Positions 2,628 through 25,667 of a stretch of DNA of 38,821 nucleotides are shown one piece after another (the first letter of the stretch is position 1; each line of letters opens with the position of its first letter). Made by a program: the position numbers and the translations under genes. The notes under the pieces are model-generated. The model saw nothing but the letters and a program-made list of their open reading frames with translations, was not told the origin of the DNA and did not search any database. This DNA is from Acidobacteriota bacterium (GTDB taxonomy: Bacteria > Acidobacteriota > UBA6911): the NCBI GenBank assembly GCA_016934295.1, contig JAFGTD010000008.1, positions 1 to 38,821 of the forward strand. Reading direction: 5' to 3'.

Positions 2628-5303
2628 CTAGTCCTTGTAAATTTTTACGCGGCAACAGATGTCCTGGTTTAATGTCAGGGGGTCCGTGTGCGGTTCGTCC
2701 ATCATGACAAGATCGTTGAAAAACGCACCTTTACCCTTGGCTACCGGCATGTATTCACCCCAGTGGCCCAGGATGGCAGCGAAGGCCAGGTGGCTCGGTT
2801 CGATCCCTTCGCTGAGCGTAACCCAGCCCTTGATTTTTTTGCCTTCCGGGTTTTCAACCCATACCAGGTCGCCTTCCTTGATCCCTTTTTCTGCGGCGGT
2901 CTTGCTGTGCATCTGGATGCCGAAGACAATGGTATCCTCCTGGGACATTTCATCCAGGTACGGGTTTTGCTGGGTCATGGAATTGGTTTGTGTGACCGCG
3001 CGCCAGTAAAACGCGTGCATGTCAAATTCAGGATTCTTTTCCGTGTGAGTCGGACAGGGATACCAGTCCGCGAGAGGTTTGAAAACAGACCAGTCCAGAT
3101 TAATGTACTTCTTCTCCGGGTCCATCTGCTTGCACAGCTCGGTTATCTGCTCGCCGGAATCGATGAAATATTCGAAATATACCGGCACCCTGGAGGGATT
3201 AAACCATTTCCAGTACACATCTTCCTTGCGCTTCGGCCATGTGAATACGCCCTTTTTGCGAACATGCTCGAGCCCGTGCTCCGGCCCGAACCGGTCTTTG
3301 AGCATCCGGTCTACGACCTCTTCCCACGTATGTTCCTGAGAACCGTCCTCGCACAGCTTGTACTCATCGCTCATGGCTCCGCCGTAACGGATAACGGTCA
3401 CATCGTTCAGCGCCTTATAGTATTTGTGGAGAATGCCGAGCCGCTTGCAGATTTCCATCATGACCACATTGAAATCCCGCCGCTCATACATCGGCTCGAT
3501 CACCGGCTGCCGGATGGTCCAGCCCCAATCATCCTCGCCCGTTGGATGGGAGAAAGTCGATGGAAAACTTACTGCAGGAGTGTATCTCTCGAGGAAACAT
3601 GTATCCGGCAGAATAATATCCGCCACGGCTTCCTCAAACTCCGTGATGTAGAGCTGGAAAGAGAAGATGAAGTTGAACTTTTTCAGGAAGTTCTCCGTCA
3701 CGATCTCGGCGTTTCCCATCGTCATGACCGAATTGGATCCGAAATTGATCATAATATCCGGTCTGTACGGGATCTTAAACTGCTCCAGCATCTCGAACCA
3801 CTTGGGATTCATGATGGTGAAAGCATTGTAAATCGAGGTGGGGAACATATCGTGCAGGTCGAGCCGCGTCGGCGGTTTGGGTTTGCGCAGAGGATAGGGT
3901 ATGTGGTCGTAAACCCAGGCCTTGCACATAAGCAGGCCGTCCTCGTCCGGGTAGGGAATCTGGTAGGGCTTTCCGGTCGGTTTGTATCCTGCGCCGACCG
4001 CTGCACCCAGGCCCAGGGCGCCTCCCCACGTATCGGCCGCACCGACCATATGGTTGATCATGTCAATGGACAGGCAGGTCCATCCGGAGTTTACATGGCC
4101 CTGAGAGCCGCGGAAAAAGTGCGCCGCGATAGGCCGTTTCGGAATCTTTTTCGGACCTTCGTCCGTCTCGATGATAACCGTTGCGCCGATCTCAACGTTG
4201 TCCGCAATCTCCTTGCCAATGCGTCTTATGGTGGATGCAGGCACGAAGGTGATTTCCGATACGTATTCCGGAGTATATTTTTTGACGTGCTCCTTCAGCA
4301 ACTCGAAACCGGGCCGGCATTTTACGCCGTCGACATCGTATTCGCCGAACAGGGCTACATCGTGAGCTTCCTCTTCATATTGAACTCGCGTTACAGAAGG
4401 ATCGTTGTGAACCTTGGGGCAGTTGTCCACCAAGTCCCAGACCATGGGCTTATTGGTTTCCTTGTCCCGCATGTACCGGCCGTCGGAAGGACGAATCAGG
4501 TAAGGCCCGTTGGTTTTGTACTTCAGGTATTCGTCATCCCAGACACCGAGATCGTTCAACAGCACATTCACCAGTCCCAGTGCCATCGCTCCGTCCGTTC
4601 CTACACGGATCGGTACCCACTCGTAAGCCTTGGAAGCCTGTGCGCTCTGCATGGGATCGAAAGTAATGGTCCTGGATCCACGGGCACGGGAATCGGCGGC
4701 CTGCGTGGCGTTCTGGACCGCCACATGACCCGCACCGTGGCCTTTGGAGCAGCCGAAATTCAAAGGCAGATTGCAGTGGGCGAAATCAGGTATGATCGAC
4801 CAGGCAACATGCATAATGCCGTTCATGAAGTGCGCGCCGTTGCCGCAGTGAAGACCTCCGCCGGACACCCAGTAATTCGGGGTTCCGAAAGCCTTCATGA
4901 ACCCGGTAACTCCATATCGTATCTCGGACGCCTGTGTGGTTGTGGCCTGGAAATAGACGCCCCGAGGATCCTTCTCCTGGCAGGCTTTCATTTTCTTGAC
5001 AATGGTGTCCATCGCCTCTTCCCAGCTGATACGCACGAACTTCGGGTCAACGCCGATACCCTTCTGCGGGTTGGTTCGCTTCAGAGGATAGTTCACCCGG
5101 TACGGGTCATAAAGAAGCTGCGGGGATGCAAGGCCCTTGACACAGATTTTGCCTCGTCCCGTCGGAGCATCCGGGTTCCCCTCAACCTCCGTCACAACAC
5201 CGTCCTGCCGCCGGACCTTGATGCCGCACATGCAGTAGCACTGACCGCAACAGGTGGATATCCAGACATCCTCCTTGACTTTGGATGTATTGGTAAGAGC
5301 CAT
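2628..5303 (-). CDS. Molybdopterin (bis-MGD) oxidoreductase catalytic subunit without Tat signal
   Basis: This 891-residue protein belongs to the DMSO-reductase superfamily. An N-terminal [4Fe-4S] motif is formed by Cys19, Cys22, Cys26 and Cys54, the last followed by Val-Lys-Gly. Cys153, in GGGLHCGNG, sits where the molybdenum or tungsten ligand is expected, which favours the PsrA/PhsA/ArrA-like branch. The molybdopterin-binding C-terminal domain is present (around TQTNSMTQQNPYL and the VWVENPEGKKIKGWV segment). The N-terminus (MALTNTSKVKEDVWIS) has no twin-arginine signal, so the enzyme is probably cytoplasmic, unlike most PsrA/PhsA proteins. The start is supported by AAAGGA eight bases upstream. 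It is the first gene of the operon with the Fe-S and NrfD subunits. The substrate is unknown; a sulfur compound, an aromatic hydroxylation or a quinone-linked redox balance are all possible. Confidence 0.88.
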   Translation of the reverse strand: MALTNTSKVKEDVWISTCCGQCYCMCGIKVRRQDGVVTEVEGNPDAPTGRGKICVKGLASPQLLYDPYRVNYPLKRTNPQKGIGVDPKFVRISWEEAMDTIVKKMKACQEKDPRGVYFQATTTQASEIRYGVTGFMKAFGTPNYWVSGGGLHCGNGAHFMNGIMHVAWSIIPDFAHCNLPLNFGCSKGHGAGHVAVQNATQAADSRARGSRTITFDPMQSAQASKAYEWVPIRVGTDGAMALGLVNVLLNDLGVWDDEYLKYKTNGPYLIRPSDGRYMRDKETNKPMVWDLVDNCPKVHNDPSVTRVQYEEEAHDVALFGEYDVDGVKCRPGFELLKEHVKKYTPEYVSEITFVPASTIRRIGKEIADNVEIGATVIIETDEGPKKIPKRPIAAHFFRGSQGHVNSGWTCLSIDMINHMVGAADTWGGALGLGAAVGAGYKPTGKPYQIPYPDEDGLLMCKAWVYDHIPYPLRKPKPPTRLDLHDMFPTSIYNAFTIMNPKWFEMLEQFKIPYRPDIMINFGSNSVMTMGNAEIVTENFLKKFNFIFSFQLYITEFEEAVADIILPDTCFLERYTPAVSFPSTFSHPTGEDDWGWTIRQPVIEPMYERRDFNVVMMEICKRLGILHKYYKALNDVTVIRYGGAMSDEYKLCEDGSQEHTWEEVVDRMLKDRFGPEHGLEHVRKKGVFTWPKRKEDVYWKWFNPSRVPVYFEYFIDSGEQITELCKQMDPEKKYINLDWSVFKPLADWYPCPTHTEKNPEFDMHAFYWRAVTQTNSMTQQNPYLDEMSQEDTIVFGIQMHSKTAAEKGIKEGDLVWVENPEGKKIKGWVTLSEGIEPSHLAFAAILGHWGEYMPVAKGKGAFFNDLVMMDEPHTDPLTLNQDICCRVKIYKD

Positions 5304-5562
5304 CTAAAATTCCTTTCCTTGAATAGCAGAACTGGTTCAAGTTCCTTCAATAAACTTTTAAAGCAATTCGACGCCCCCCAGAGGAAATATCTATTTCTGG
5401 CGCACCGATTATAAAAGCACCATCTTGGGGCGTCAATAACGAATAAACGAACGGAAACACCGGCCTGCGATCCAGAGGCCGCCGGCAATTTTGTCCTTGC
5501 ACAGAGTTTACAATTCCGAATAGTCTCATGTTTGAAGCGACGGGCGGGGCCCCAAAATACCT
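5304..5562. promoter_or_regulatory. Divergent intergenic region with inverted repeats
   Basis: This 259-bp region separates the minus-strand molybdoenzyme operon from the plus-strand gene at 5563, so it should hold promoters for both. I see an imperfect inverted repeat (GACGCCCCCCA at about 5371 with TGGGGCGTC at about 5425) and a small hairpin at 5461-5481 (CGGCCT/AGGCCG). I cannot place a confident promoter. Confidence 0.35.
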
Positions 5563-6207
5563 GTGGAACATGAGGCGCAACCATTGAGCGAACTGACGGA
5601 AGAACCGGATTGGTCGGAAACCGAAAGAAATTTGGAGCCGCAGTATGTGTCTTACTTCAAAGAATCTATGAGCATGCCGGAAGAAGTAGCGCGTGAAATT
5701 TTCAAGACTTTTGTAGCGGAGCAAAAAGCCGCTGCCCGTAGAGAGGGCACCGACCGGTTTCCGGAATTGTTCGGTTCGATTCTCCTGGAACGGGAGCAGA
5801 CCGATGAAAAGGTCAGAAACGCGTTTGCTCCCAAAAGAGCTGAAGGCGTCACCGACGAAGACATACTCCTGTGGTGGAACATGCACGACCTGGAACGTCG
5901 TTTGATTTGTAAAGTCGACGAGATGAACCGGATACTGCTGTTTGAAAAACTTATGCAGAGCAATGACATGACTGAAATAGAGGCGGCGCGCCAAGTCGCA
6001 AGACTTTTGCCGGTTTACGGCGATCCGGAACATCTTATCCTGGAAACGGATGACGACCGCCCTCTGCCGTATGAGCTGAAATGGCGCGTCAATCGATACA
6101 TCACAGAAAGAACCAAAGCCGAGCCGGACGAATTCCAAAAGGAAGTAGAAGCGACAACCTCCCTGAATGCACTCCTTCGCATGGCAGTGAGGCAGCGCGA
6201 GCTTTAA
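5563..6207 (+). CDS. Hypothetical acidic helical protein
   Basis: This 214-residue, charge-rich and probably all-helical protein has no signal peptide, membrane segment or motif that I recognise. It begins at GTG 5563; an internal TTG at 5584 is an alternative, and neither has a strong ribosome-binding site. The composition (many Glu, Arg, Leu; few Gly or Cys) and the continuous frame are protein-like. It is the only plus-strand gene among about 26 kb of minus-strand catabolic genes, and it is read divergently from the molybdoenzyme operon. A longer frame on the opposite strand (5347-6279) is less protein-like and Phe/Arg-rich, so I take it as the shadow. Function unknown. Confidence 0.55.
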   Translation: MEHEAQPLSELTEEPDWSETERNLEPQYVSYFKESMSMPEEVAREIFKTFVAEQKAAARREGTDRFPELFGSILLEREQTDEKVRNAFAPKRAEGVTDEDILLWWNMHDLERRLICKVDEMNRILLFEKLMQSNDMTEIEAARQVARLLPVYGDPEHLILETDDDRPLPYELKWRVNRYITERTKAEPDEFQKEVEATTSLNALLRMAVRQREL

Positions 6208-10273: not shown

Positions 10274-10888
10274 CTATTCCTCCGGGGCGGATGCCGAAGC
10301 ACGGTCCGGAAAAGCAAGCGCCTCAGTCAGGACATAGGCAGCCTGCGCATAGGATGTAGGACACAGCTCGAAACACTCCTTACAGTCCCAGCACGCCTTT
10401 GAAGCCACTTCCGGGATAAATATTATTTCCCGTCTCGGTCCCCTGTCGCTGAATCCAACAGCGTATTTCTGCTTGATTTCTGCACAGTATCTCACGCACA
10501 GTCCGCAAAGAATGCAGAACGCGGGCTCCTTTTCAAAACGATCCGCATCGGCCCCATACTCTCGAGCCAAACGCCGCAAATCCTCGGAATCCGGGGCATG
10601 GGCCAACAATTCCTCCAGAATAACTTTGCGGGTTTTTCCCACCTTTACAGATCGGGTCCGTACGACCATATTCCGCTCAACAGGGTAGACACAGGCAGCG
10701 ACAAGACGCGTCCTGCCGGCGGTCTCCAATTCCACCGTACACACCCGGCAGGCTCCATACGGAGTCAGCTTTTCATGGTGGCAAAGCGTGGGAATGAAAA
10801 TCCCGGCGCTTTTAGCCGCTTCGTATATAGTCATCCCTTCGCTTGCTTTGACTTCTTTTCCGTCGATCTGTAGAAGGATTTCACTCAT
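10274..10888 (-). CDS. bamI: BamI: NuoG-like Fe-S subunit of class II benzoyl-CoA reductase complex
   Basis: The 204-residue protein resembles the N-terminal part of NuoG. It has a plant-type [2Fe-2S] site (CHHEKLTPYGACRVC and the later AACVYP), then two cysteine clusters (CILCGLCVRYC and CWDCKECFELCP). The NuoG molybdopterin-like domain is missing, as in BamI proteins. With BamG and BamH it should form an electron-input module that accepts or donates electrons for the bifurcating BamDEF part. It starts two bases after the bamH stop, with GGAGAGAG upstream. The name rests on operon position and domain layout together. Confidence 0.88.
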   Translation of the reverse strand: MSEILLQIDGKEVKASEGMTIYEAAKSAGIFIPTLCHHEKLTPYGACRVCTVELETAGRTRLVAACVYPVERNMVVRTRSVKVGKTRKVILEELLAHAPDSEDLRRLAREYGADADRFEKEPAFCILCGLCVRYCAEIKQKYAVGFSDRGPRREIIFIPEVASKACWDCKECFELCPTSYAQAAYVLTEALAFPDRASASAPEE

Positions 10889-10890
10889 TG

Positions 10891-12825
10891 TTATTTACTC
10901 TCTCCAGCCAAATTTCTCGCTTCTTCCGGTATGGGAGCTGGAACAGGCTCGCCGGAGAGCCGCCTGACCGCGCCAAAGCGAGAGGGACAAACCTCAAAGC
11001 AGGTTCCACAGTTCGTGCATTTTTCCTGATCGATGACATGGATCTGTTTCTTGCCGCCGATGATTGCATCCACGGGGCATTTCCGGAGGCAGATCATACA
11101 GGCCGAACACTTATCCGGATCGATATAGAAGGAGATCAATTCCTTGCAGACAAAGGCAGGGCATTTCTTGTCCTTGATATGTGCATCATACTCGTCTTTG
11201 AAGTAGCGTATTGTACTGAGAACCGGATTGGGTGCGCTTCCGCCCAGGGCGCAAAGCGAGGCATCCCGCGTAGTCTCGGCCAGTGTCTCGAGGAGTTCGA
11301 CATCGCCTTCTTTGCCTTTTCCCTGACTGATATTCGTCAGAATCTTCAGCATCTGACGGATGCCTTCCCGGCACGGAGTGCATTTGCCGCATGATTCATC
11401 CGACAGGAAATTAAGAAAGTACCTGGCAACATCCACCATGCAGGTGTCCTCATCCATTACAATCATGCCGCCGGAACCCATAATGGCGCCGACCTTCGCC
11501 AGTTCGTCGAAGTCGACGCTCATATCCAGATACTCTTCGGGGATGCATCCTCCCGACGGGCCTCCGGTCTGGACCGCCTTGAATTTCTTTTCTCCGGGAA
11601 TGCCGCCGCCCACCTTATATATAATGTCCCTCAGCGTTATTCCCATAGGCACTTCCACGAGACCCGTATTTTTCACCTTGCCGACCAGAGAAAATATCTT
11701 CGTACCCTTGCTTTTTTCAGTGCCGATTGAGGTAAAAAACTTGGAACCCTTGTTGATTATCAGGGGTATGTTGGCCCAGGTTTCCACATTATTTATGTTG
11801 GTCGGCTTGTTCCACAAGCCTTTCACGGCCGGGTACGGCGGTCTTGCGACAGGCTCTCCGGGCTTCCCTTCCAGGGACCTTAAAAGCGCCGTTTCCTCGC
11901 CGCATACGAAAGCGCCGGCACCTCGATGCACCTTTACCGAAAAATCAAAGCCCGATCCGAGAATATTTTTACCAAGAAGACCGAGATCTTCGGCTGCCCG
12001 GATCGCGATGGTTACATTATCCACCGCCAGGGGGTACTCCTGGCGCACATAGAGAAATCCTTCATGGGCCCCGATCGCATACGCGCCGATCAGCAAACCC
12101 TCCAGAACCGCATGCGGATTTCCCTCCAGCAGCGCCCTGTCCATAAACGCGCCCGGGTCGCCTTCATCGGCATTGACAACCACGTACTTCGTATCCCCGG
12201 GACTGTTGCGGGCAAACTCCCACTTCTTCCCGGCCGGGAAACCGGCGCCGCCCCTTCCTCTTATGTTGGAATCCTTCACCACATCCAATACCTGTTCCGG
12301 CTTCATCCCGGCAAGGGCTTTCACCAGGGCCGTATAGCCGCCTACGGCCAGATAATCTTCAATGCTCTTTGGATCCAGCTTGATATTGTTGCCGATTAAA
12401 AGCCGCGTCTGATTCTTGTAAAACGGCACATCGGATTCGCGGATGGACTTTTCTTTGGACACGGGATCGACATACAGCAGCCGGTCGATGACCTTCTTGG
12501 CCAGAATGGTTTCGGCAATGATCTCTTTGGCGTCGTCCGGCTTTACCTGAAGATAGCAGATCTCCTCGGGATAAATCACGATAACCGGGCCCTGCTCACA
12601 AAAACCGGGGCAGCCCGTCTCCCGGATATCCACCTTGACATCCACCTCGGCTCCCAGTCCCTGCTTCTTTATCTCTTCTCTCAAAGCAGCCACCACTTCC
12701 GCCGCGCCGAGAGCAATACAGCCGGTTCCGGTGCAAACGGCTATGCATGGCTTCTGTGGATCCCTTTTCGAAAGGATGCCTTTCCTGAACTCCTCCAATT
12801 CGGCAGGCGATTTTATCCTCGGCAT
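10891..12825 (-). CDS. bamH: BamH: NuoF-like flavoprotein with extra ferredoxin domain
   Basis: The 644-residue protein has, in order, a thioredoxin-like [2Fe-2S] domain (CTGTGCIALGAAE and ETGCPGFCEQGP), an NADH/FMN-binding NuoF core (GRGGAGFPAGKKWEFARN; NADEGDPGAFMDR), a [4Fe-4S] site (SCGKCTPCREG) and a C-terminal double ferredoxin domain (CSACMICLRKCP and CTNCGTCFEVCP). This is the layout of NADH-dependent bifurcating partners such as HydB/HndC. In the Bam complex it is thought to exchange electrons with NAD(H). It follows bamG by nine bases, with an AAGGAA site. Confidence 0.9.
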   Translation of the reverse strand: MPRIKSPAELEEFRKGILSKRDPQKPCIAVCTGTGCIALGAAEVVAALREEIKKQGLGAEVDVKVDIRETGCPGFCEQGPVIVIYPEEICYLQVKPDDAKEIIAETILAKKVIDRLLYVDPVSKEKSIRESDVPFYKNQTRLLIGNNIKLDPKSIEDYLAVGGYTALVKALAGMKPEQVLDVVKDSNIRGRGGAGFPAGKKWEFARNSPGDTKYVVVNADEGDPGAFMDRALLEGNPHAVLEGLLIGAYAIGAHEGFLYVRQEYPLAVDNVTIAIRAAEDLGLLGKNILGSGFDFSVKVHRGAGAFVCGEETALLRSLEGKPGEPVARPPYPAVKGLWNKPTNINNVETWANIPLIINKGSKFFTSIGTEKSKGTKIFSLVGKVKNTGLVEVPMGITLRDIIYKVGGGIPGEKKFKAVQTGGPSGGCIPEEYLDMSVDFDELAKVGAIMGSGGMIVMDEDTCMVDVARYFLNFLSDESCGKCTPCREGIRQMLKILTNISQGKGKEGDVELLETLAETTRDASLCALGGSAPNPVLSTIRYFKDEYDAHIKDKKCPAFVCKELISFYIDPDKCSACMICLRKCPVDAIIGGKKQIHVIDQEKCTNCGTCFEVCPSRFGAVRRLSGEPVPAPIPEEARNLAGESK

Positions 12826-12834: not shown

Positions 12835-13287
12835 TTACTCGTAGTTTTTCAACACATCTTCCGATTTGGACGGCCCCATTTTGCCATGGTATTTGCCGTC
12901 GATGACCATTACCGGACCCAAGGCGCAGCAGCCGACGCAACCGACGGTCTCGAGGCTGAACTTCATATCCATGTCTGTTTCTCCGGGTTTGATTCCCGTC
13001 AGGTCCTGTACCGAATCGAGCAGGCGCGGGGCTCCGCGCACATGACACGCGGTACCCGTACATATGTGAATCTCATGGCGCCCCTTCGGAAGCAGATTGA
13101 AAGCCTTGTAAAATGTAACGATGTGCTGTATCCGGCTCAGAGGCACTTCCAGTCTCTCCCCGACCCTCTCAATCGCATCCTTCGGCAGCCAGCGATTCTC
13201 GCGCTGAATCTCCAGCAATATCTGTATAAGCGAGCTGGCATCGCTCTGATGTTTTTCTATAATCTTATCGATTTGATCGTTTTCCAT
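12835..13287 (-). CDS. bamG: BamG: NuoE-like [2Fe-2S] thioredoxin-fold subunit
   Basis: The 150-residue protein matches NuoE. The [2Fe-2S] ligands are in CTGTAC and VGCVGCC, separated by about 36 residues. The helical N-terminal half begins at IDKIIEKHQSDASSLIQILLEIQRENRWLP, the family signature. It would act next to BamH in electron transfer. It starts 92 bp after bamF, with CAGGAAG upstream, and is nearly contiguous with bamH. Length is normal for the family. Confidence 0.9.
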   Translation of the reverse strand: MENDQIDKIIEKHQSDASSLIQILLEIQRENRWLPKDAIERVGERLEVPLSRIQHIVTFYKAFNLLPKGRHEIHICTGTACHVRGAPRLLDSVQDLTGIKPGETDMDMKFSLETVGCVGCCALGPVMVIDGKYHGKMGPSKSEDVLKNYE

Positions 13288-13379: not shown

Positions 13380-14147
13380 CTAGGCGGCGACAAAGCGCTT
13401 CCGGCCTTCGTCAAACCTCGAATATCCCTGCCTGGCAGAAACATTCAGGTGTTTCGATACTTCGGACGAGTCCATGCCCAAGATCTCCGATATCTCTCCG
13501 GTTGACCGGGGACTTTCCCGCAGAAGAGCCAGAATCTGCCCAATCACCAGCTTGTCGCCGATCAGTTCCTGAAACAGACGGTTCACCTCGTCGCTTTTAA
13601 AATATTCGGTATATTCCTTCGCCGTGTCGAATCGCACCCGCAGCCTTTCCCTTTCGACCAGTCGAATAAAGGGAATCAATTTCGTAACCGCCTCGAGTTT
13701 GAACTTCAATCCGGCCGCATCGATGCCTTCACCCTTGCCGAGAGGGCCCAGTTCATGAAGCCTGGCGGAAAAATCATTCATCACTTCGGCGTAACGGATG
13801 CCTTCGCCCGCCGACATCTGCTCAATCCTCAATCTTTCCGGATTGAGACCTATGTGCTCCATCAATTTCCGGCATAGTTGCACCATACTGTAGGCATGGT
13901 GATTCCCGTCCGTAATATAATGGCACTCGTTCAGGTGACACCCGCCGATAAACACCCCGTCCATTCCGTTTGAGAACGCCCGGAGTACGAAAGACAGGTC
14001 GACTCTGCCGCTGCACATCACACGGATCAGCTTAATGTCGGTCGCATACTGTTGTCTGGAAACTCCAGCCAGATCGGCAGCGCCGTACGCTCACCAGTTG
14101 CATACAAAGCCAAGGATTTTCGGCTTGAATTTAAGTCCCGCACTCAT
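13380..14147 (-). CDS. bamF: BamF: MvhD-like Fe-S subunit with predicted selenocysteine (in-frame UGA)
   Basis: Ordinary gene calling gives only a fragment starting near 14021. In the same frame the coding region extends to ATG 14147, preceded by GGAGGAGG. It passes one TGA at 14093-14091 (codon 19), giving PKILGFVCNWUAYGAADLAG. MvhD-family proteins carry Cys at this CNWC position, so UGA is read as selenocysteine. Downstream, MCSGRVD (Cys45) and FIGGCHLNECHY hold the other conserved cysteines. With Sec the product is 255 residues. MvhD subunits relay electrons to an HdrA-type flavoprotein, here BamE. Residues ~205-255 form a winged-helix-like tail (STGEISEILGMDSSEVSKHL) that is not part of the basic MvhD fold. 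Selenocysteine in some BamF homologues is reported to my knowledge. A pseudogene is unlikely, because conservation continues on both sides of the UGA. Confidence 0.9.
14056..14093 (-). promoter_or_regulatory. Selenocysteine UGA and candidate bacterial SECIS hairpin in bamF
   Basis: The UGA is at 14093-14091. Starting 22 bases after it on the minus strand is a perfect 5-bp stem, CTGGA/TCCAG, closed by a GTT loop (14068-14056). A G at the start of a small apical loop, roughly 25-30 bases after the UGA, is what bacterial SelB-binding elements show. A slightly different fold (TCTGG/CCAGA) is also possible. No selA, selB, selC or selD lies in the window. Confidence 0.65.
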
Positions 14148-14184
14148 TCTTTCCCTCCTCCTTTCTTAACATTTCACGCCTGAT

Positions 14185-14323
14185 CTGTGACTCTTTTCAA
14201 AGCGAAAAGCTGGATTGTGAATCCATCGGCGCCAGGGTCGGAATCGGTATCGGGATCGAGTTTTACAAACGATTCCGATACCGACTCCGATACCGACCCC
14301 CGAAAACTCACCCAGAGTCACAG
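14185..14323. repeat. Nested palindromic element between bamE and bamF
   Basis: The 217-bp bamE-bamF spacer contains an outer 9-bp inverted repeat (CTGTGACTC at 14185 and GAGTCACAG at 14315). Inside it is a larger imperfect hairpin. Its arms (about 14234-14258 and 14270-14298) are built from iterations of TCGGTATCGG-like units and are purine- versus pyrimidine-biased. It could form a very stable RNA structure between the bamE stop and the bamF start, and it resembles a dispersed intergenic repeat more than a gene. Confidence 0.65.
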
Positions 14324-14364: not shown

Positions 14365-17300
14365 TCAATGCACTTCCACAAGATCCGGCTTCTCCGCCTT
14401 TGCAGGAGCCGCCGCGTCGATCTGATCCATTATCTCTTCATCCGTGTAGTGCTTTAAAACGATGGCTGCTGTCGCGCATACGGTGTTGCAAAGCCCGTCT
14501 CCTTTACAGAGGACAGGATTCACGTACGCTTTTTTGCCCTGCGGCGTATCGCGGAAGCTGATCGCATCATACGTGCAGACCGAGATGCATGCCCCGCACG
14601 CAACACAGGCGCTTTCATCGACGACACACACGGAACCCGAAGCCGTTACCGTATCATGCGAAAGTAGAGTCAGCGCCCGGCCGGCCGCCCCGTACGCCTG
14701 GCTGACCGCTTCGGTTATATGCTTGGGATAATGCGCCGTCCCGCACAGGTAAACGCCCTCCGCACCGAAATCCACCGGTCTTAATTTCACGTGCGCTTCC
14801 TGAAAGAAACCGTCCGGGTTCATAGTCACCTTGAACAAAGCGGCTATTTCCTTCTGCTCCCTGTTGGGAATGGTGGCGGCAGCCAGGGCGAGATAATCGG
14901 CGTCGATTTCAAGGTCTGTTCCCAGAACAGGATCGGGGGCGGTTATTTTCAGGACAGGCCTGCCCTCGACCTCGGCGGCTTCCACCTTGGGCTTATTTTC
15001 AGGTTCGTAGCGTATGAACTTCACTTCCTTATCCGCTGCTTCCCGATAGTAATCCTCCCTGAATCCGTAAGGCCGCATATCCCGGAAAAGAATGTGGATA
15101 TCCATCTCCGGGTTGATCTCTTTCAGTTTCAGGGCGTTCTTTATGGAATGGCTGCAGCATATCCGTGCGCAGTAATTGCGGTCTTCCTGTCGGCAGCCTA
15201 CACACTGGATCATAGCCAGGCTCCGGGCGCCCGTCACCTTTTCTTCCCCTTCGGCGATTCGCTCCTCAAGTTCCAGCTGGGTCAGAACCCGGTCATCCTC
15301 CCCGTAAAGGTATTCCGTCGGTTTATATTCATCCGCGCCTGTGGCAATGACGGTCGCTCCATGTTTTATCTCAACAACCCGTCCTGCAGAATTCACCCTG
15401 GTTACAAAATTTCCCACGTAACCGCTGGCCTCGGTAATCCTGGAATCCGTTAGCACATGAATCAGCGGGTGCCGATAAACCCTGCGCCTCAGATCTTCCA
15501 GATATGCCTGAACGTCAAGACCTTCCAGTGTGTAATGAATTCTTCGCGCCATGCCTCCCAGATCCGGCTCTTTTTCCACGAGGTAAACCTCGTGTCCCTG
15601 TTCGACAATGCTTAAAGCACTCGTCATCCCGGACAGGCCTCCTCCAACCACCAGCGCCCGTTTGTTCACGGGCAGATCGAATTCCTGCAGCGGCTCCAGA
15701 TTGGCGGCGCGGGCAACGGCCATCCGTATAATTCCCTTGGCCTTTTCGGTGGCGTCTTCCTTTTCCTTGGAATGAACCCAGGAGCAGTGTTCCCGGATAT
15801 TGGCCATATCGTAGAAGTATTGATTGATGCCCGCCTCCCGAAGCGTGTCCCGGAACAACGGCTCATGGGTCCTGGGAGTACAAGCGGCGACAACCACCCG
15901 GTTAAGCCCTTTCTCGCGGATTGAGGCTGCCAACCGCTGTGCGGCATCCGTAGAACATATAAAGAGGCTCTCTTCGGCGTGACACACGTTTGGGAGCGAC
16001 AGAGCATAGTCAACGGTGGAAGGAACATCGACGACTCTTCCGATATTCGCCCCGCAATGACACACGTAGACGCCCACCTTGGGCTCCTCGTTCGAAACAT
16101 CCCTTTCCTGAGGATAGACTCTTTCTTTCGCCAGCTTCCCCCGCCTGTAATTGAGAAGTTCGCCGCATTGGGAGCCGGCGCCGCTGGCCGTTACTACCGA
16201 CTCAGGGATGTCTAAAGGACCCTGAAACGCTCCGCTGATATAAATTCCCGGGCGGGACGTCTTCATGGGATTCACGGGATTGGTTTGACAGAACCCGTGA
16301 GGATTGAGTTCGATACCGAACTTCTCGGCCAGGCTCTTGTAATCGGACGGAGGATTCAATCCGACGGACAGCACCACCATATCGAATTCTTCTTCTTTAA
16401 CCCCCTCGTCAGGAGTGGAGTACCGTATCGTGACATTTTTGGTCTCGGGGATTTCTCTGCCGATGGAAACGTAACTGCGGATGAATCGAACCCCCGGGAG
16501 TTTTTCCGCCCGCTGGTAAAAGCGCTCGAAATCCTTGCCGTAGGAACGGATATCGTTATGAAAAATCGTACACTCGGTGTCCGCGTCGTGATCTTTTGTC
16601 AGGATAACCTGTTTCTGGGTATACGTGCAGCATACGGCCGAACAATAGCTTCTACCGCCCGGAATGACCTGTCGGGAGCCGACACAGTGAATCCAGGCGA
16701 CCTTGTGCGGATGATTCCTGTCGCTCGCGCGCCGGATCTCGCCTTCGTACGGCCCGGTGGCGCACAGCAGCCGTTCGTAGTCCAGGCTCGTGACTACGTT
16801 CTCGAACTTGCCGTATCCATAGTCGTTCCTCAACCTGGGATCAAACGGTTCGAAGCCGGGGGACAGAATGACCGCGCCTACTTTAACCTCCATCTTCTCC
16901 GCCTTCTGATTGAAGTTGATGGCGTCGGCTTTGCAGACCCCCTGGCAGATCTTGCACTTGCCCTCTTTAAGGTAAAGGCAGCTTTCGTCAATATAAGTGA
17001 CCAGCGGGATCGCCTGGGAAAAGTAAATGTGTATGGCCTTATTCGATGAAATGTCCTGATTGAACCGGTCCGGATAGTGAACCGGGCAGTACTCCACGCA
17101 TACGGTACACCCAGTACACTTACTCTCCTCGACGTACCGCGGTTTCTTGGCAAGGGTTACCGTAAAGTTTCCCGCCTCTCCTTCCACGGCATCCACTTCC
17201 GTATAGGTCATGATTTCTATGTTGGGATGCCGGCTGCATTCGACGAACTTGGGAGATTCAATGCACATGGAACAGTCGTTCGTGGGAAAAGTCTTGTCGA

Positions 17301-17481
17301 GCTGGGCCATGTGGCCGCCGATAGTCGGGGATTTTTCAACCAGGTAGACCTTGTACCCTGCCGTAGCGAGATCGAGAGCGGCCTGGATGCCGCTGATCCC
17401 TGCGCCGACGATCATCACATCTCCATAATTGCCGTCAGCGGGGCTTTGCAGCAACTGTCCTTCGATGGTTTCTTTTTCCAC
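14365..17481 (-). CDS. bamE: BamE: HdrA-like flavoprotein with tandem FAD domains
   Basis: The 1038-residue protein is a long HdrA relative. A first FAD site (VGAGISGIQAALDLATAGYKV, near residue 26) leads into the HdrA signature TFPTNDCSMCIESPKFVECSRHPNI. A ferredoxin-type cluster CTGCTVCVEYCP follows at about 121. A second dinucleotide site (VVGGGLSGMTSALSIVEQGHEV) starts near residue 610. The C-terminus carries two [4Fe-4S] motifs (CVACGACISVC and CKGDGLCNTVC). HdrA proteins are the flavin-based bifurcation site in heterodisulfide reductase complexes, and BamE is proposed to play that part in benzoyl-CoA reductase. It starts with GTG, with AAGGA about eight bases upstream. No Sec codon or frame break is seen here. 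Confidence 0.92.
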   Translation of the reverse strand: MEKETIEGQLLQSPADGNYGDVMIVGAGISGIQAALDLATAGYKVYLVEKSPTIGGHMAQLDKTFPTNDCSMCIESPKFVECSRHPNIEIMTYTEVDAVEGEAGNFTVTLAKKPRYVEESKCTGCTVCVEYCPVHYPDRFNQDISSNKAIHIYFSQAIPLVTYIDESCLYLKEGKCKICQGVCKADAINFNQKAEKMEVKVGAVILSPGFEPFDPRLRNDYGYGKFENVVTSLDYERLLCATGPYEGEIRRASDRNHPHKVAWIHCVGSRQVIPGGRSYCSAVCCTYTQKQVILTKDHDADTECTIFHNDIRSYGKDFERFYQRAEKLPGVRFIRSYVSIGREIPETKNVTIRYSTPDEGVKEEEFDMVVLSVGLNPPSDYKSLAEKFGIELNPHGFCQTNPVNPMKTSRPGIYISGAFQGPLDIPESVVTASGAGSQCGELLNYRRGKLAKERVYPQERDVSNEEPKVGVYVCHCGANIGRVVDVPSTVDYALSLPNVCHAEESLFICSTDAAQRLAASIREKGLNRVVVAACTPRTHEPLFRDTLREAGINQYFYDMANIREHCSWVHSKEKEDATEKAKGIIRMAVARAANLEPLQEFDLPVNKRALVVGGGLSGMTSALSIVEQGHEVYLVEKEPDLGGMARRIHYTLEGLDVQAYLEDLRRRVYRHPLIHVLTDSRITEASGYVGNFVTRVNSAGRVVEIKHGATVIATGADEYKPTEYLYGEDDRVLTQLELEERIAEGEEKVTGARSLAMIQCVGCRQEDRNYCARICCSHSIKNALKLKEINPEMDIHILFRDMRPYGFREDYYREAADKEVKFIRYEPENKPKVEAAEVEGRPVLKITAPDPVLGTDLEIDADYLALAAATIPNREQKEIAALFKVTMNPDGFFQEAHVKLRPVDFGAEGVYLCGTAHYPKHITEAVSQAYGAAGRALTLLSHDTVTASGSVCVVDESACVACGACISVCTYDAISFRDTPQGKKAYVNPVLCKGDGLCNTVCATAAIVLKHYTDEEIMDQIDAAAPAKAEKPDLVEVH

Positions 17482-17627: not shown

Positions 17628-18779
17628 CTAGATCACTTCCTGAATCAACTCCGTGATGTCCTTAATCTCCATGGTTTCGCTGTCTTCCCGGTTCATCCGG
17701 CTGTCTTCAAAATTGGTAATGCAATAAGGGCAGGAAGTAACCAGGACCTCGGCTCCGATATCGCTCACCTGCTCCAGTCTTAAATCTGAGAAACGCTCCT
17801 CTTTCGGCGTCTCCATCCAGATTCTTCCCCCTCCGCCGCCGCAACAGAGACTGTCGGCACGGGCGTCAGGCAGCTCGGAGAATTCCAGTCCCGGCACTTT
17901 CTTCAGGGTATCCCGGGGTTCATCGTAGATGGAATTATGCCGGCCCAGGTAGCATGGATCATGGTACGTGACTTTCTTCAGGTATTCCTTGTTCAGCTCC
18001 AGCCTTCCATCGTTCACGAGCTCGTTTAAGTACTGCGTGATATGCACGACTTCGAAATTTACTTTGAATTCGGCATAATCGTTTTTGAAGGCTTGATAAC
18101 AATGCGGTGAAGAAACAAGGATTCTCTTCACGCCGTTATCAATAAAAGTTTTGATGTTATCCTTGGCCAGGCGCCGGAATAAGTCCTCGTTGCCCGTCTT
18201 GCGGATGCTTTCACCGCAGCATTTTTCCTGGACACCCAGGATTCCGAAATCCACACCCGCCTTGTTGAGGATATTCACAGTGGCTCTTGCAACTTTTTTC
18301 AATCTTGGATCATAGCTGAGATAGCAACAGGGGAAATACAGGATTTCCATCCCCTCTTCAAACGTTTTTACGGATAGGCCTTCCGTCCAGTTTGCCCTGT
18401 CTTTTTGATCTTCATTCAGGGGATTTCCTTCGCTGATGAGACTCTGGGTGACACCGCGGATCGGCTTGATGGAAGCGGGGAATACATCGAATTCCGTCGC
18501 CAGCCTGCGGTTAGCCACGCCCACTTCCAGAATCCCCACTCCCCTGGGGCATCGTTGCGGGCATCTTCCACAGGTCGTGCATCGCCATATCTCTTCGTTT
18601 TCCACTTCGGTCAGACCGAAGGTCGCCTGCCGGATCAGCTTGCGCATGCTGAAGTTCCGAACCCGGTTCCAGGGACAGACCGTGTCGCATAACCCGCACT
18701 GGTAACAGTATTTGAAGGCTTCTCCGCCTTTTTCTTTGATGATATCGACGATCTCTTTGAAGTCGGCTATATTCTCCAC
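17628..18779 (-). CDS. bamD: BamD: HdrD/HdrB-like Fe-S subunit (ferredoxin domains plus two CCG domains)
   Basis: The 383-residue protein has two N-terminal [4Fe-4S] motifs (CYQCGLCDTVCP, CTTCGRCPQRCP), then two CCG domains (cysteines in FPCCYLS, KCCGES and PHCY; then DPCYLGRH, CCGGGGG and SCPYC). In heterodisulfide reductase such CCG domains hold noncubane [4Fe-4S] clusters that reduce a disulfide. In the Bam complex BamD is thought to relay electrons between BamE and BamC. It starts at GTG with TGGGGA upstream, 111 bp after bamC. Length and cysteine spacing are normal. Confidence 0.92.
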   Translation of the reverse strand: MENIADFKEIVDIIKEKGGEAFKYCYQCGLCDTVCPWNRVRNFSMRKLIRQATFGLTEVENEEIWRCTTCGRCPQRCPRGVGILEVGVANRRLATEFDVFPASIKPIRGVTQSLISEGNPLNEDQKDRANWTEGLSVKTFEEGMEILYFPCCYLSYDPRLKKVARATVNILNKAGVDFGILGVQEKCCGESIRKTGNEDLFRRLAKDNIKTFIDNGVKRILVSSPHCYQAFKNDYAEFKVNFEVVHITQYLNELVNDGRLELNKEYLKKVTYHDPCYLGRHNSIYDEPRDTLKKVPGLEFSELPDARADSLCCGGGGGRIWMETPKEERFSDLRLEQVSDIGAEVLVTSCPYCITNFEDSRMNREDSETMEIKDITELIQEVI

Positions 18780-18890: not shown

Positions 18891-19439
18891 TCAGTCTTTC
18901 TTCGACATTCGGGCAACGGCATCCATTACATTCTGGAGGCCGTATTTGCCGGCCAATGCTTCCAATCCAATTTCCACCTCTTCCTGCTGAGCCACTGCAT
19001 CTTCCTCCACTTCTTCTTCCCTTGTTTCGTAGATCAGGGCATCGTTCAGGCACCATTGCACGCACATCGGCTCATCCAGTTCCGGATCGCTTTCACACAT
19101 ATCGCATTTTAACGGGAGACCGGAATCAGGCTCCTTGAAGGCGTCCCTGGACGGACAGGAGGCCCGGCAGAAGGCGCACTCCTCGTACTCTTTCCCTTCA
19201 ATAGTGTACTGGTCCCGTCCCATGCATTCGGCGGGCGCGTACTCCCCCGCATATACGGGTATGTATATGTCTCTCAGCGGATGACGAATAACACGAACGC
19301 GGGCTCTCGCCGGATTATTGCTGCTGTATTTCGGCTCTGCGTGGAAGGCGGAACAAATGACTTCGCATGCGCGGCAGCCGTTGCATTTATCAACGTCCAC
19401 TTTAATAGTTTTTATGATTTTCTTTTTTTTCTCACCCAT
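18891..19439 (-). CDS. bamC: BamC: ferredoxin-like small subunit of benzoyl-CoA reductase
   Basis: The ~182-residue protein has three cysteine-rich groups (CNGCRACEVIC; CAFCRASCP; CDMCESDPELDEPMCVQWC) arranged like the electron-transfer subunits that partner aldehyde ferredoxin oxidoreductase-type enzymes. BamC carries electrons to the tungsten subunit BamB. The frame could begin at GTG 19451, but ATG 19439, with AGAGGT about ten bases upstream, fits better. It follows bamB by only ~20 bases. The C-terminal third (about residue 135 on) is acidic and has no cysteines. Confidence 0.92.
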   Translation of the reverse strand: MGEKKKKIIKTIKVDVDKCNGCRACEVICSAFHAEPKYSSNNPARARVRVIRHPLRDIYIPVYAGEYAPAECMGRDQYTIEGKEYEECAFCRASCPSRDAFKEPDSGLPLKCDMCESDPELDEPMCVQWCLNDALIYETREEEVEEDAVAQQEEVEIGLEALAGKYGLQNVMDAVARMSKKD

Positions 19440-19460
19440 GACGGTTACCACCTCTTCACT

Positions 19461-21467
19461 TTATTCCTTTTCCTCTTTAGCCGGAGTATCTGCCGCCGGA
19501 GTATCTCCGTTGCCTGTCAAGATGCCCCTCTTCCGAAAATCTTCGCTGACGTAATCCAAAGACAATTCTTCCAAAGACTCTTTCGTAGGAATACCCTGTT
19601 CGTTCCATCCCTTGAACTTGTAATAGGTATCCAGCAGATCCTTCTCAAGTTCGGGAAATCGTTTCTTCCAATGATCCTCGGGAGGCTTCTCATCTTCCCG
19701 GCGCATTCCCCGTCTGACATTTATGGCCCTTATCAGGGTCCGGTACCGTTTGGCCGCCTGCGTCAGTTTGTCTTCATCCATGTCGATGCCGGCGCCCGAC
19801 GAGATAAACTTGGGGTAATTATGGATGTGGTAGGGAGGTTTCAGGGGGAATGAGGACAGGCCGGCACACATCCCGAGCGCATCGTCGATGTAATGCATTT
19901 TCTCCTGCCAGTCGACGATGTCGCAGCACATTTCAACCGTCGGGTAAAAAGGCATGGAGTTATCGCCGCGCAGCTCCCAGTCCAGAAAATACTGCTTGAA
20001 CCTGTCGTCCGGAACCTGGATCCAGTCCTTCACGAACTCTTCCCGCTGCTCTCTCTTCGGGAAAGGCATCTGGGGAAACTGCCCTTCGATCTGGGTTATG
20101 TTTATCTTCTCTCCGGTACAGTACATCAGGAAATAAATTGGATTCAGCATGGAAAGCTTGAGAGGTAGCTGCTCAATTTTCTTAATGTTATTATGAGCAT
20201 ATTCTTCCGCTCCCTTGCCGATTTCCTGTGCCGCCCAATATGTACCGTTTGCGAGAACATCCCCTATCCCTTCCCGGCGAACGATTTTGTCAAGCAGATA
20301 GTAAAATCTCCCCTCGCTGTCGGACGGCATTTCCGGAAAGTCGTCGTCCGTTAAAATGCCGTTTTCGTGGAGTTCCAGGGCGAAGGCCATAACCTGCGGC
20401 GTCGAAAATCCGTCCACTCCATACTCTGTGGCCCTTTGAGCGATTTTCAGCCCGAAATCCAGGTCCGAAAAAGCCGCCATTGTATAGGTAAGCTTCGAGA
20501 AGCATTTCATCATGTAGGTTGGAAGGCCGGGAATCGAAATGGTCCCGCCGCATTTCATCGGGCAGTTATAACAGCTGATCAGCCGCGTCCGTGTATTTTC
20601 CAGGGTCTGCGTCCATTCACTGGCTACTTCCTCTGTCCAGAAATCCTTCCGGCGGACACGGGAATTGCCCCACATGAAGCTTTCGGTGTGCCACTTCTCA
20701 TCGTGGATTTTCATCTCCTGCGGCGAACCGAGCCCGGCTAAAATGGGCATAACTCCGGGTATGGGATTATCTTCGCGTTTTTTAATGTACTGCAGCACCT
20801 CACTGCAAAGCCCGTGAAATTCAGCCGGGCGGGCGACATTGATGTCCCTGGTTCCCCGGACGACAATGGCCTTTAATCCCTTGTCGCCCATCACGGCCCC
20901 TATTCCTGCGCGGCTGGCGCTGGATCGGCCCTGTTCGATGGAGGCAAAAAAGACCCTGTTTTCACCGGCCAGGCCGATAGCAGCCACCTGGGCGTTGGAA
21001 TCCTTTACTTCCTGGCGAAGTAAATCCGTGGTTTCATTGGAACCTTTGCCCTGCAGATGGGTAGCATCCCGGATTTCCACCTTGTCGTTGTTGATGTACA
21101 GATAGACCAGGCTGGGAGACCTGCCGCGAATAATCACTTTGTCGTAACCGGCATACTTCAATTCCGGCGCCCAGAATCCTCCCATCATTGAGAATGCCAG
21201 CAGCTTAGTCTGGGGAGAGATAGTCGTTACAATCGTACGATTGCAGCCGACGGCTGGCGTTCCACATAAAAGACCGGCGCTGAATATCAGCAGATTATCG
21301 GGAGAAAATGCATCGACTTCCGGGGGAACCCTGTCCCACATGATCTTGGCGTTCGTACCCAGCCCTCCCAGGTAAAGCTCGGTATCTACGGGATCGTTTT
21401 CCACCCTTTCTATGTTTCCGCGGGATAGATCGATTTCTAAATTAAACCCTGTCTCTCCGTACCTCAT
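19461..21467 (-). CDS. bamB: BamB: tungsten active-site subunit of class II benzoyl-CoA reductase
   Basis: The 668-residue protein belongs to the aldehyde:ferredoxin oxidoreductase family. The [4Fe-4S] ligands are Cys299, Cys302 and Cys306 (CYNCPMKC) plus the later Cys in DDALGMC. Pterin-binding segments are present (GRSSASRAGIGAVMGDKGLKA; TEYGVDGFSTPQVM). From memory of the Geobacter BamBC structure, the active site uses Glu251, His255, His260 and a tungsten-ligating Cys322. This protein has Glu251, His255, His260 and Cys322 at exactly those numbers. That argues strongly for a true ring reductase rather than a generic aldehyde oxidoreductase. It is the first gene of the operon, 96 bp after the HTH-GNAT gene, and has a G-rich ribosome site. 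Confidence 0.94.
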   Translation of the reverse strand: MRYGETGFNLEIDLSRGNIERVENDPVDTELYLGGLGTNAKIMWDRVPPEVDAFSPDNLLIFSAGLLCGTPAVGCNRTIVTTISPQTKLLAFSMMGGFWAPELKYAGYDKVIIRGRSPSLVYLYINNDKVEIRDATHLQGKGSNETTDLLRQEVKDSNAQVAAIGLAGENRVFFASIEQGRSSASRAGIGAVMGDKGLKAIVVRGTRDINVARPAEFHGLCSEVLQYIKKREDNPIPGVMPILAGLGSPQEMKIHDEKWHTESFMWGNSRVRRKDFWTEEVASEWTQTLENTRTRLISCYNCPMKCGGTISIPGLPTYMMKCFSKLTYTMAAFSDLDFGLKIAQRATEYGVDGFSTPQVMAFALELHENGILTDDDFPEMPSDSEGRFYYLLDKIVRREGIGDVLANGTYWAAQEIGKGAEEYAHNNIKKIEQLPLKLSMLNPIYFLMYCTGEKINITQIEGQFPQMPFPKREQREEFVKDWIQVPDDRFKQYFLDWELRGDNSMPFYPTVEMCCDIVDWQEKMHYIDDALGMCAGLSSFPLKPPYHIHNYPKFISSGAGIDMDEDKLTQAAKRYRTLIRAINVRRGMRREDEKPPEDHWKKRFPELEKDLLDTYYKFKGWNEQGIPTKESLEELSLDYVSEDFRKRGILTGNGDTPAADTPAKEEKE

Positions 21468-23602: not shown

Positions 23603-24397
23603 TTATGAGTCTTTCCAGACAGGTTTGCGGCGTTCGATAAAGGAATTGATTCCCTCATTGCCGTCATGGCTTGCCACGACTTCATCAACATACTGCCGTT
23701 CGATTCTGGCGAGCGGTTCTTCGACAGCCGCGAATAATCCGGAACCGATCCGGGCGACGCGCGTATTCTGACGTATTGCGAATGCCGACAATGGGCGCAG
23801 GTTTTTCTGATACCACGCCATCAGTTCCTCGTCGGGATTGTCGCTGGAAAAAATGGTCGATACCATCCCCGATTTCTCTGCCGTCGCGGCATCGATCGTG
23901 TCACCGGTCAGGATCAATCTCTCAGCCAGCGGTCCGCCGAGACGCTTAGCCCCGATGGCAGCAAGAACGGGGGGCAGAACTCCGAGTTTGATTTCAGGGC
24001 ATCCGAGCACTGCGGTCGGGGTTGCAAAAACCATATGGCAGGCCAGGATCAGCTCGAACGCTCCCCCAAGACACGATCCTTCAACCAGGGCGATAACAGG
24101 CACCGGATACGTGACAATCTTACGGATCATTGCGTGGAATCCGGCAAGCATCGACGGCGCCTGATCCTTCTGATGTTCTTCAACAGAGGCGCCGAAGGAA
24201 AAATGCTTTCCGGCACCGCGAATCACAACCGCGCGCAGATGCGGGTTGTCGCTTTGAGCATCGAGTTCTTTTGAAAGCGCCTGCATCATCTCCAGTGTAA
24301 GGACATTCCCTTTGGGTTTGTCCAACACAAGGCGAAGAAGAGTCCCGTCTTCGAGGAGAGTTGCATTTACAATCGGAGAAGCATTTTCAACAGACAT
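23603..24397 (-). CDS. bamR: BamR: cyclohexa-1,5-diene-1-carbonyl-CoA hydratase
   Basis: The 264-residue protein is in the enoyl-CoA hydratase/crotonase family. The oxyanion-hole segment GKHFSFGASVEEH is, as I recall, typical of dienoyl-CoA hydratases of anaerobic benzoate degradation (Dch/BamR). The second oxyanion segment is EGSCLGGAFELILACHM. The reaction adds water to the 1,5-dienoyl-CoA made by BamBC, giving 6-hydroxycyclohex-1-ene-1-carbonyl-CoA. I chose ATG 24397, with AAAGGAG upstream, over the longer frame from 24427. Placement beside bamQ and bamA supports the call. Palindromic repeats lie on both sides of the gene. Confidence 0.88.
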   Translation of the reverse strand: MSVENASPIVNATLLEDGTLLRLVLDKPKGNVLTLEMMQALSKELDAQSDNPHLRAVVIRGAGKHFSFGASVEEHQKDQAPSMLAGFHAMIRKIVTYPVPVIALVEGSCLGGAFELILACHMVFATPTAVLGCPEIKLGVLPPVLAAIGAKRLGGPLAERLILTGDTIDAATAEKSGMVSTIFSSDNPDEELMAWYQKNLRPLSAFAIRQNTRVARIGSGLFAAVEEPLARIERQYVDEVVASHDGNEGINSFIERRKPVWKDS

Positions 24398-24440
24398 ATA
24401 CGCTCCTTTTACCGGAATGGCCGGCATCTTAAAAAAATAT

Positions 24441-24611: not shown

Positions 24612-25667
24612 CTAAGTGAGTGGATCCATCACCATCCGGCGCTCAAGTTTGTGCGCTGTCATGGCTGCAAAGTATTCGTCGACCTTGGACATCGGACCGT
24701 ATTCGATGAAAGGATCCAGTTTTACCTTGCCTTCCTCGATCAATTTAAGGACACCGGGATAGGCTTCCGGGGCACATCCCCAGGTGCCGTGAATCGTTGC
24801 ATCGAAAGCCATAAGATTCGAAAGCCGCACTTCGACCTTTTTGGGAGTATATCCCACCTGCATCAGTGTAGCGCCGCGCTCCAATAAGCCGTACGCCGTA
24901 ACCTGGCCGGCCGGACTTCCGCTGCACTCGAAAATTTTGAAATTTAAAGTAGGCACACCCTTTCCGAAACCGCGAACCTGCTTGCGAAGCTCCCGAGGAT
25001 CCTTGTCCGTCAGGTTGACGGTTTCCTCGGCCCCATGCTCCGCGATCAGCTTCAAACGATCCTCCACTATATCGCAGGCAATAACACGGGCTCCCATGGC
25101 AGCGGCAATTTGAACGACAAAACCGCCGACGCCGCCCGAACCTACGACAATAGCTATGTCGTCCGAAGTCAGCTTTGCACGGAGAATCGCCTGGTAGGCG
25201 GTCGAAACCGCATCGGCAACGACGGAAAGCGATGCGACATTTGTAGACAGCCCCTCTCCGATTTTAATCACCGGACGGGCAGGGACAAGGAAGTGCGTGG
25301 AAAATCCGCCGTTGATATCGTTTCCGGGCATTTTCTGGTTCGGACAGGCATTCCCGCGCCCCGCATGGCAGAACGCGCATTCTCCGCATGGCAGAACAGC
25401 GGGAACCAGTACAGTCGAACCCATCAGCGATTCAAAGTCCTGGCCGGCGGCTACGACTTTCCCAACCGCTTCGTGCCCGAGCACCAGGGGTATCCCTTTT
25501 TTTGTCGGGACAGATCCATTTGCATATCCCAGATCCGTATGGCAGAGGCCACAGGCGATCACTTCCACAATGACTTCAGCAGGGCCTGGATCGGGGATTG
25601 TCAAAGACCGCCGCACCAGAGGCTTGTTGGCCTCTTCCAAAACATATGCTTCAGCAGTAACACTCAT
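24612..25667 (-). CDS. bamQ: BamQ: 6-hydroxycyclohex-1-ene-1-carbonyl-CoA dehydrogenase
   Basis: The 351-residue protein is a zinc-dependent medium-chain alcohol dehydrogenase. Catalytic zinc ligands are in CGLCHTDLGY and LGHEAVGKV. The structural zinc site is CGECAFCHAGRGNAC. The NAD-binding loop is VVGSGGVGGFVVQIAAAMGA. Such dehydrogenases next to bamA and bamR oxidise the 6-hydroxy compound to the 6-oxo compound with NAD+. AAGGAGG lies just before ATG 25667. Family membership is certain; the specific substrate is inferred from position between bamA and bamR. Confidence 0.87.
   Translation of the reverse strand: MSVTAEAYVLEEANKPLVRRSLTIPDPGPAEVIVEVIACGLCHTDLGYANGSVPTKKGIPLVLGHEAVGKVVAAGQDFESLMGSTVLVPAVLPCGECAFCHAGRGNACPNQKMPGNDINGGFSTHFLVPARPVIKIGEGLSTNVASLSVVADAVSTAYQAILRAKLTSDDIAIVVGSGGVGGFVVQIAAAMGARVIACDIVEDRLKLIAEHGAEETVNLTDKDPRELRKQVRGFGKGVPTLNFKIFECSGSPAGQVTAYGLLERGATLMQVGYTPKKVEVRLSNLMAFDATIHGTWGCAPEAYPGVLKLIEEGKVKLDPFIEYGPMSKVDEYFAAMTAHKLERRMVMDPLT

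Follow-up and report, generated by a model that had tools for sequence, protein, structure and literature searches.

The window, which is the whole stretch of DNA that was analysed (38,821 nucleotides from an Acidobacteriota bacterium), carries a complete bamBCDEFGHI cluster for class II benzoyl-CoA reductase on its minus strand. The genes bamB, bamC, bamD and bamE come before bamF, and bamG, bamH and bamI come after it. Beyond bamB, a dch-like gene lies at about 2 kb, and had and oah at about 3–5 kb. The genes are as follows, with the basis of each assignment in brackets.

25790 to 26932, minus strand: one gene of the had/oah pair (TIGR03200, above cut-off)
24612 to 25667, minus strand: the other gene of the had/oah pair (TIGR03201, above cut-off)
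23603 to 24427, minus strand: dch, cyclohexa-1,5-dienecarbonyl-CoA hydratase-like (TIGR03189 is the best match, below its curated cut-off)
19461 to 21467, minus strand: bamB, tungsten aldehyde:ferredoxin oxidoreductase family (Pfam; homologous clusters)
18891 to 19451, minus strand: bamC, ferredoxin-type subunit (Pfam; homologous clusters)
17628 to 18779, minus strand: bamD, with CCG and 4Fe-4S domains (Pfam; homologous clusters)
14365 to 17481, minus strand: bamE, HdrA-like flavoprotein with Cys at residue 73 (domain and homologue comparison)
13380 to 14147, minus strand: bamF, 255 predicted residues including selenocysteine (Sec) at position 19, with an FlpD/MvhD domain at residues 11–134 and a C-terminal HTH at 204–235
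12835 to 13287, minus strand: bamG, thioredoxin-like [2Fe-2S] subunit (Pfam)
10891 to 12825, minus strand: bamH, NuoF-like (profile matches)
10274 to 10888, minus strand: bamI, 2Fe-2S/4Fe-4S subunit (Pfam)

Two side observations concern the stop codons and spacers of the cluster. Both bamC (18891) and bamE (14365) end in a double stop, TGA followed by TAA, which could act as a guard against read-through. In the gap between bamE and bamF (14220–14300), inspection by eye showed units resembling GGTATCGG/GGAATCGG arranged as an inverted repeat.

The reading frame of bamF starts at ATG 14147 and closes with the TAG ending at 13380. Its sole in-frame UGA is codon 19. Three features surround the start of the gene.

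14153 to 14164, minus strand: strong ribosome-binding site AAAGGAGGAGGG, upstream of ATG 14147
14091 to 14093, minus strand: UGA codon 19, predicted to be read as selenocysteine, in the motif CNWU (homologue alignment)
14056 to 14068, minus strand: putative SECIS hairpin CUGGA-GUU-UCCAG, starting 22 bases past the UGA, with a 5-bp stem, a 3-nt loop and 27 nt from UGA to loop

The first-pass annotation of this DNA had described bamF as a selenoprotein gene that standard calling truncates, and the sequence bears out its main points. The in-frame UGA is present at 14093–14091, where it changes the CNWC of MvhD proteins, which have Cys at that place, to CNWU. The strong ribosome-binding site said to precede it is found at 14164–14153, ahead of the ATG. 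The 5-bp hairpin with a G-leading loop, placed 22 bases past the UGA, reads CTGGA-GTT-TCCAG at 14068–14056. The sequence upstream of the UGA is conserved as claimed: among the 137 rows with TGA, the amino acid at C16 never changes and that at W18 changes once. Finally, a mechanical open reading frame call with table 11 finds in this stretch only a 213-residue frame from GTG 14021, and misses residues 1–42.

The product of that call is itself an alternative reading, in which the UGA is a true stop and BamF is a shorter protein of 213 residues. Such a protein would be without the CxxU motif and the strand with which the modelled fold begins, however, and it would account neither for the ribosome-binding site ahead of ATG 14147 nor for codons conserved as protein before the UGA and frozen as a SECIS after it. 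Since 137 of the 157 long relatives have the same arrangement, we consider a true stop very improbable.

The full-length frame encodes a recognisable protein. PF02662 (FlpD/MvhD) matches BamF with 162.6 bits and PF01022 with 31.3 bits, both above the Pfam cut-off, and the HTH is C-terminal. The AlphaFold model has a mean pLDDT of 91.6. Its best four matches in the PDB are MvhD-type chains of Hdr complexes (5odh, 5odc, 8rvu and 7bkb), and the TM score against chain D of 5odh, normalised by the target, is 0.92.

Homologues were collected from a first scan of one genome per species, which gave 80 loci, and later from 396 genomes of the window's phylum, 395 genomes of a Geobacter's phylum and further stretches. 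The 242 aligned sites include 220 distinct ones, after 22 repeats were dropped. A homologue was called long if it covers at least 185 of the 255 residues; 157 distinct sequences are long, many of them closely related to each other.

The first scan gave 47 long homologues of BamF type. In 46 of them the site is TGA and the fragment also carries bamE; the remaining one (L032) has TGC, and its fragment is without bamE. Among the 157 distinct long homologues, the codon is TGA in 137 and Cys in 19, and in one (L174) it lies beside unread bases. An alignment of homologues had been proposed as a check in the first-pass annotation, and it thus gives Sec or Cys in 156 of 157. Other codons occur at the site in two short, poorly aligned rows among the 220. 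Across 34 aligned rows, five positions of BamF are invariantly Cys or Sec: 16, 19, 45, 70 and 75.

The closest named relative, 89% identical in BamF, comes from a metagenome-assembled genome labelled Acidobacteria and has the same UGA. The next relatives, at 75–77% identity, are labelled Acidobacteria in two cases and Bacteroidetes in one. The presence of the identical UGA in related genomes, including the 89% identical copy, speaks against a pseudogene or a sequencing error at one codon, as does the lack of any further in-frame stop in bamF. Nothing specific favours such an accident apart from an assembly in 343 contigs, and we give it next to no credence.

Bacterial SECIS elements have been modelled, as quoted in PMC13188914, with a loop of 3–9 nt, an upper stem of 4–16 bp, a G at loop position 1 or 2, and 16–37 nt between UGA and loop. 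Loop size, stem length, loop G and spacing were compared with this model. The bamF hairpin agrees in each of them, with a stem of 5 bp, the loop GUU (a leading G and then U) and a spacing of 27 nt.

The hairpin is also preserved where the protein does not require it. All five stem pairs are found in 126 of 141 Sec rows against 2 of 76 Cys rows, and the loop G in 141 of 141 against 59 of 76. Where the same residue is encoded, the codon GGA is used in 131/141 Sec rows and 14/76 Cys rows, GTT in 130/141 and 18/58, the Ser codon TCC in 135/140 and 23/59, and the Arg codon AGA in 119/141 and 4/74; shorter MvhD paralogues make up most of the Cys rows in this comparison, and the rows are not independent.

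Other signs of structure are weaker. The folding energy of the hairpin stretch is unremarkable next to shuffled sequences (z of 0.14, 0.20 and −0.24) and was dropped as evidence for a SECIS. Thus, of the hairpin check suggested by the first-pass annotation, loop, stem, G and spacing fit the published model of bacterial SECIS elements, and the folding energy is no better than that of shuffles. Covariation is also absent in eight sequences, where none of eight pairs has both sides changed, because the hairpin hardly varies. Rfam gives no match at the gathering score within the window. The case for a SECIS therefore rests on synonymous conservation among related genes, and a hairpin frozen in this way is strong sequence evidence for one.

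The genome has the means to insert selenocysteine. The window's assembly (5.45 Mb in 343 contigs, completeness 93.8) contains one tRNA-Sec gene (selC) above cut-off at 72.5 bits, selB at 407 bits, selA at 550 bits and two selD genes above cut-off, each of them with one in-frame TGA. A search for these four genes, which the first-pass annotation had named as a check, therefore finds all of them.

TGA could in principle be reassigned in this genome, or be read by a suppressor tRNA. No support for either was found. Six of the 29 listed genes of the window end in TGA as an ordinary stop, which contradicts reassignment, and the full Sec machinery of the genome is a further point against it. This reading is exceedingly improbable.

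Taken together, a UGA that takes the place of Cys and is almost universally conserved, the frozen SECIS, the Sec machinery and the bam context make it very probable that bamF encodes a selenoprotein, a subunit of class II benzoyl-CoA reductase, with Sec inserted at UGA codon 19. Translation would begin at ATG 14147. At codon 19, SelB with Sec-tRNA, bound on the hairpin 22 bases downstream, would insert selenocysteine, and the ribosome would then continue to the TAG at 13380. We infer from the sequence that the UGA is read through in the host organism.

The resulting protein would be a [2Fe-2S] subunit of MvhD type, through which electrons move between the complex and the flavin of the HdrA-like BamE. 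Sequence and fold similarity suggest that BamF binds one [2Fe-2S] cluster, and the gene cluster predicts that it is part of a benzoyl-CoA-reducing complex. In the CxxC pair, Sec19 would stand in for the second Cys, at one of the five invariant Cys/Sec positions. Its most likely role would be to tune the potential of the cluster or the electron transfer through it. It is plausible that this position is a ligand of the cluster beside the flavoprotein.

Alternatively, Sec19 may be inserted without being a ligand and may, together with Cys16, make up a selenol/thiol pair that is redox-active and adjoins the cluster. Four ligands are usual for a [2Fe-2S] cluster, and the five invariant positions (16, 19, 45, 70 and 75) are one more than that. 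At least 26 other MvhD rows have Sec at a GGU position instead. The distance to be covered is also long. According to PMC12350162, the [2Fe-2S] cluster bound by the MvhD family lies close to the flavin of HdrA, and electrons cross about 25 Å from the cluster to this bifurcating flavin by a mechanism that the paper calls unknown; PMC6019823 puts the same gap at more than 30 Å in a crystal structure. On the other hand, CxxC is present also in MvhD proteins without Sec there. On balance such a pair is rather unlikely, and an influence of Sec19 on the cluster itself is the preferred role.

In a quick tree of 163 rows of BamF and its homologues (156 labelled), Sec and Cys at the site need three changes, or four with the site columns masked. 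The Cys forms are marked by a second Cys: 18 of the 19 read CNWCCY, with an extra Cys adjoining the Sec position (L032, L109, L152, L163, L166, L168–L173, L175, L176, L222, L225 and L254–L256). In the Sec rows the residue after the site is Ala in 104 of 141.

Ten genomes have both Sec and Cys long homologues. Missing Sec machinery was considered as the cause of the Cys forms and rejected: of the 14 genomes with Cys-BamF that were tested (out of 19), 13 have selB above cut-off, so a lack of selenium use fails to explain them. Two Cys-BamF genes (L166 and L168) lie inside clusters with all of bamB to bamI, from which it follows that Sec is dispensable. In five others (L165, L169, L171, L172 and L175), bamE is the neighbour and the stretch covered contains neither bamB nor bamC.

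The Sec site itself varies among relatives. Strict mutual exclusion of Sec at CxxU and at GGU was suggested by the first 80 loci and is broken by L112 and L113, whose BamF/MvhD-like proteins have two in-frame TGA codons, one at each position. In a subgroup of BamF (L054, L056, L057 and L058), a C-terminal ferredoxin-like domain replaces the HTH; neither bamG nor bamI was found on their four fragments. By a motif test, 47 of the Sec rows and 5 of the Cys rows in the tree belong to this type. BamE may have a UGA as well: residue 73 is TGA in 8 of 103 alignments at 50% identity or more. Three such homologues (L057, L058 and L174) are 70–76% identical, and two of them, L057 and L058, have a Sec-type BamF beside them.

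Parts of the bamF start occur without the rest of the gene. A pattern search was made in 113 genomes of another bacterial class, that of G399 (a Desulfotomaculaceae MAG), and in further stretches. Seven short open reading frames in five genomes keep the ribosome-binding site, start, UGA and SECIS of bamF, but not the BamF protein. These will be called leaders.

L173, 2944 to 2768, minus strand: leader
L257, plus strand: leader with UGA at 5128
L285, minus strand: leader with UGA at 1540
L289, minus strand: two leaders, with UGA at 13437 and at 6943
L290, plus strand: leader with UGA at 636
L291, minus strand: leader with UGA at 4496

The first Cys of CxxU is gone in five of the seven, and 41–78 codons separate the UGA from the next TAA or TAG. 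The leader of L173 is a frame of 58 codons before a Cys-bamF gene; it has the bamF ribosome-binding site, start, CNW-UGA and intact hairpin, and the remainder is broken. About 0.8 kb upstream of this leader and its Cys-bamF gene, selB is encoded divergently (3781 to 5706, plus strand), with a NifU-like frame between them, as judged by eye.

In L290, in L291 and at 6943 of L289, the leader is followed by bamE (with Cys73) and then by Cys-bamF. The leaders of L285 and L257 precede bamE of the Cys73 type; the bamE copy of L257 is apparently broken near the contig end. In the other leader of L289, at 13437, the change of a single hairpin base leaves a 4-bp stem and puts the G second in the loop. 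This leader is followed by a small frame and then by a formate dehydrogenase gene (TIGR01553, 1123 bits against a cut-off of 814). Judged by its motif, the probable Sec site of this enzyme is Cys (ARLCHSSTV).

The UGA-SECIS segment is the most conserved part of the leaders. Across the seven, which share ancestry, the hairpin departs from the consensus at 1 of 91 positions, codons 4–17 at 73 of 301 and bases 38–110 at 80 of 560. The leader was compared with the adjoining gene in G815, G883, G892 and G893, the four genomes where an intact leader precedes bamE. The 4-fold sites of bamE are 52–75% identical, whereas in all six pairs the hairpin matches at 13 of 13 bases and the UGA plus spacer at 23–24 of 25. 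Bases 38–110 are 77–81% identical and codons 4–17 67–76%. Both exceed the 4-fold level in the distant pairs and lie at roughly that level in the closest pair. Hence it is in the UGA-SECIS that the excess of conservation is clearest.

One possible role is selenium sensing. The UGA, read as Sec or as a stop, would report the selenium supply and set the expression of the Cys isozyme, an idea to which we give a little less than even weight. We know of no cis element, outside selAB of E. coli, that explains the switching of bacterial Sec and Cys isozymes by selenium supply. If true, the UGA-SECIS leader before Cys isozymes would be such an element.

A serious rival holds that the leaders are gene relics in different stages of decay. 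Among the 23 Cys-bamF genes with an N-terminus in the class of G399 (24 rows, one partial row dropped), six, in five operons, have an intact leader upstream. Four have a leader with UGA and an altered loop, seemingly without the G; five have a degenerate remnant only; in five no leader was found upstream by profile; and in three the contig ends within about 2.5 kb upstream. The two changed-loop leaders that were compared (G812 and G817) match the intact ones at 12 of 13 hairpin bases and 15–18 of 25 bases of UGA plus spacer, with 48–60% identity at 4-fold sites.

In L285, L289, L290 and L291, apparent remnants of bamF and of the 3' end of bamE were seen by eye between leader and bamE, which points to an origin of the leaders by deletion in a tandem array. 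A common intrinsic-terminator attenuator between leader and gene was not found: a simple scan gave a weak candidate in only two of the seven. Against mere relics stands the UGA-SECIS, which is more conserved than the silent sites of bamE in the four genomes compared.

Gene conversion from a Sec bamF gene of the same genome was considered as well, to explain why the leaders are conserved, and is not favoured. All seven leaders are closer to another leader than to bamF of their own genome, in a comparison that covered nine bamF genes, part of the copies in these genomes, and in which a bamF gene of another genome ties with the best leader for two of them. A weakly supported branch (79/77) separates the leaders from nine full-length bamF genes of Sec type in their genomes. 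In the phylum of G396 (395 genomes), none of 30 loci inspected is an orphan leader: 26 are full-length or open for more than 200 codons, and in four the contig stops shortly past the UGA.

If bamF is a selenoprotein gene, one of the most strongly reducing systems known in biology has a subunit that depends on selenium. Gene callers without a model for UGA would lose the CxxU end of BamF.

The cluster resembles known ones. Geobacter metallireducens bamBCDEFGHI and the BamF of Desulfococcus multivorans are like the window's in gene order and domain make-up, and Geobacter-type loci have UGA at the same bamF codon. BamF, including that of Geobacter, has been stated to be a selenoprotein. A 2004 paper on D. 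multivorans reportedly deals, to go by its title, with selenocysteine proteins in benzoate metabolism. A table in PMC1924859 gives the class II BamF domains as hydrogenase delta subunit plus HTH. In contrast to the window, where BamF is the predicted Sec form, the UGA genes listed in PMC5109826 for D. multivorans include BamE, under two locus tags with UGA and SECIS, and not BamF.

The Sec-type bamF is not a new kind of selenoprotein gene, as PF02662 (the MvhD family) with the motif CxxU already stands in the selenoprotein table of PMC13188914. The MvhD/VhuD (FrhD) selenoproteins share with the window's BamF both this domain and the CxxU Sec motif. BamF differs from them in its C-terminal HTH extension and its place in an aryl-CoA reductase cluster. 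It also differs from the MvhD-type rows, at least 26 in number, that have Sec at GGU and not at CxxU. HdrA selenoproteins, also with CxxU, are the partner flavoproteins of the same complexes; the corresponding residue 73 is TGA in some BamE genes, but Cys in the window.

The pairs of Sec and Cys BamF in ten genomes recall the Vhu/Vhc isozyme pairs of methanococci and the Hdr pairs of Desulfobacterium autotrophicum, as described in PMC2702500. They differ in that the BamF pairs are bacterial and that 18 of the 19 Cys forms of BamF have a further Cys next to the first (CNWCCY).
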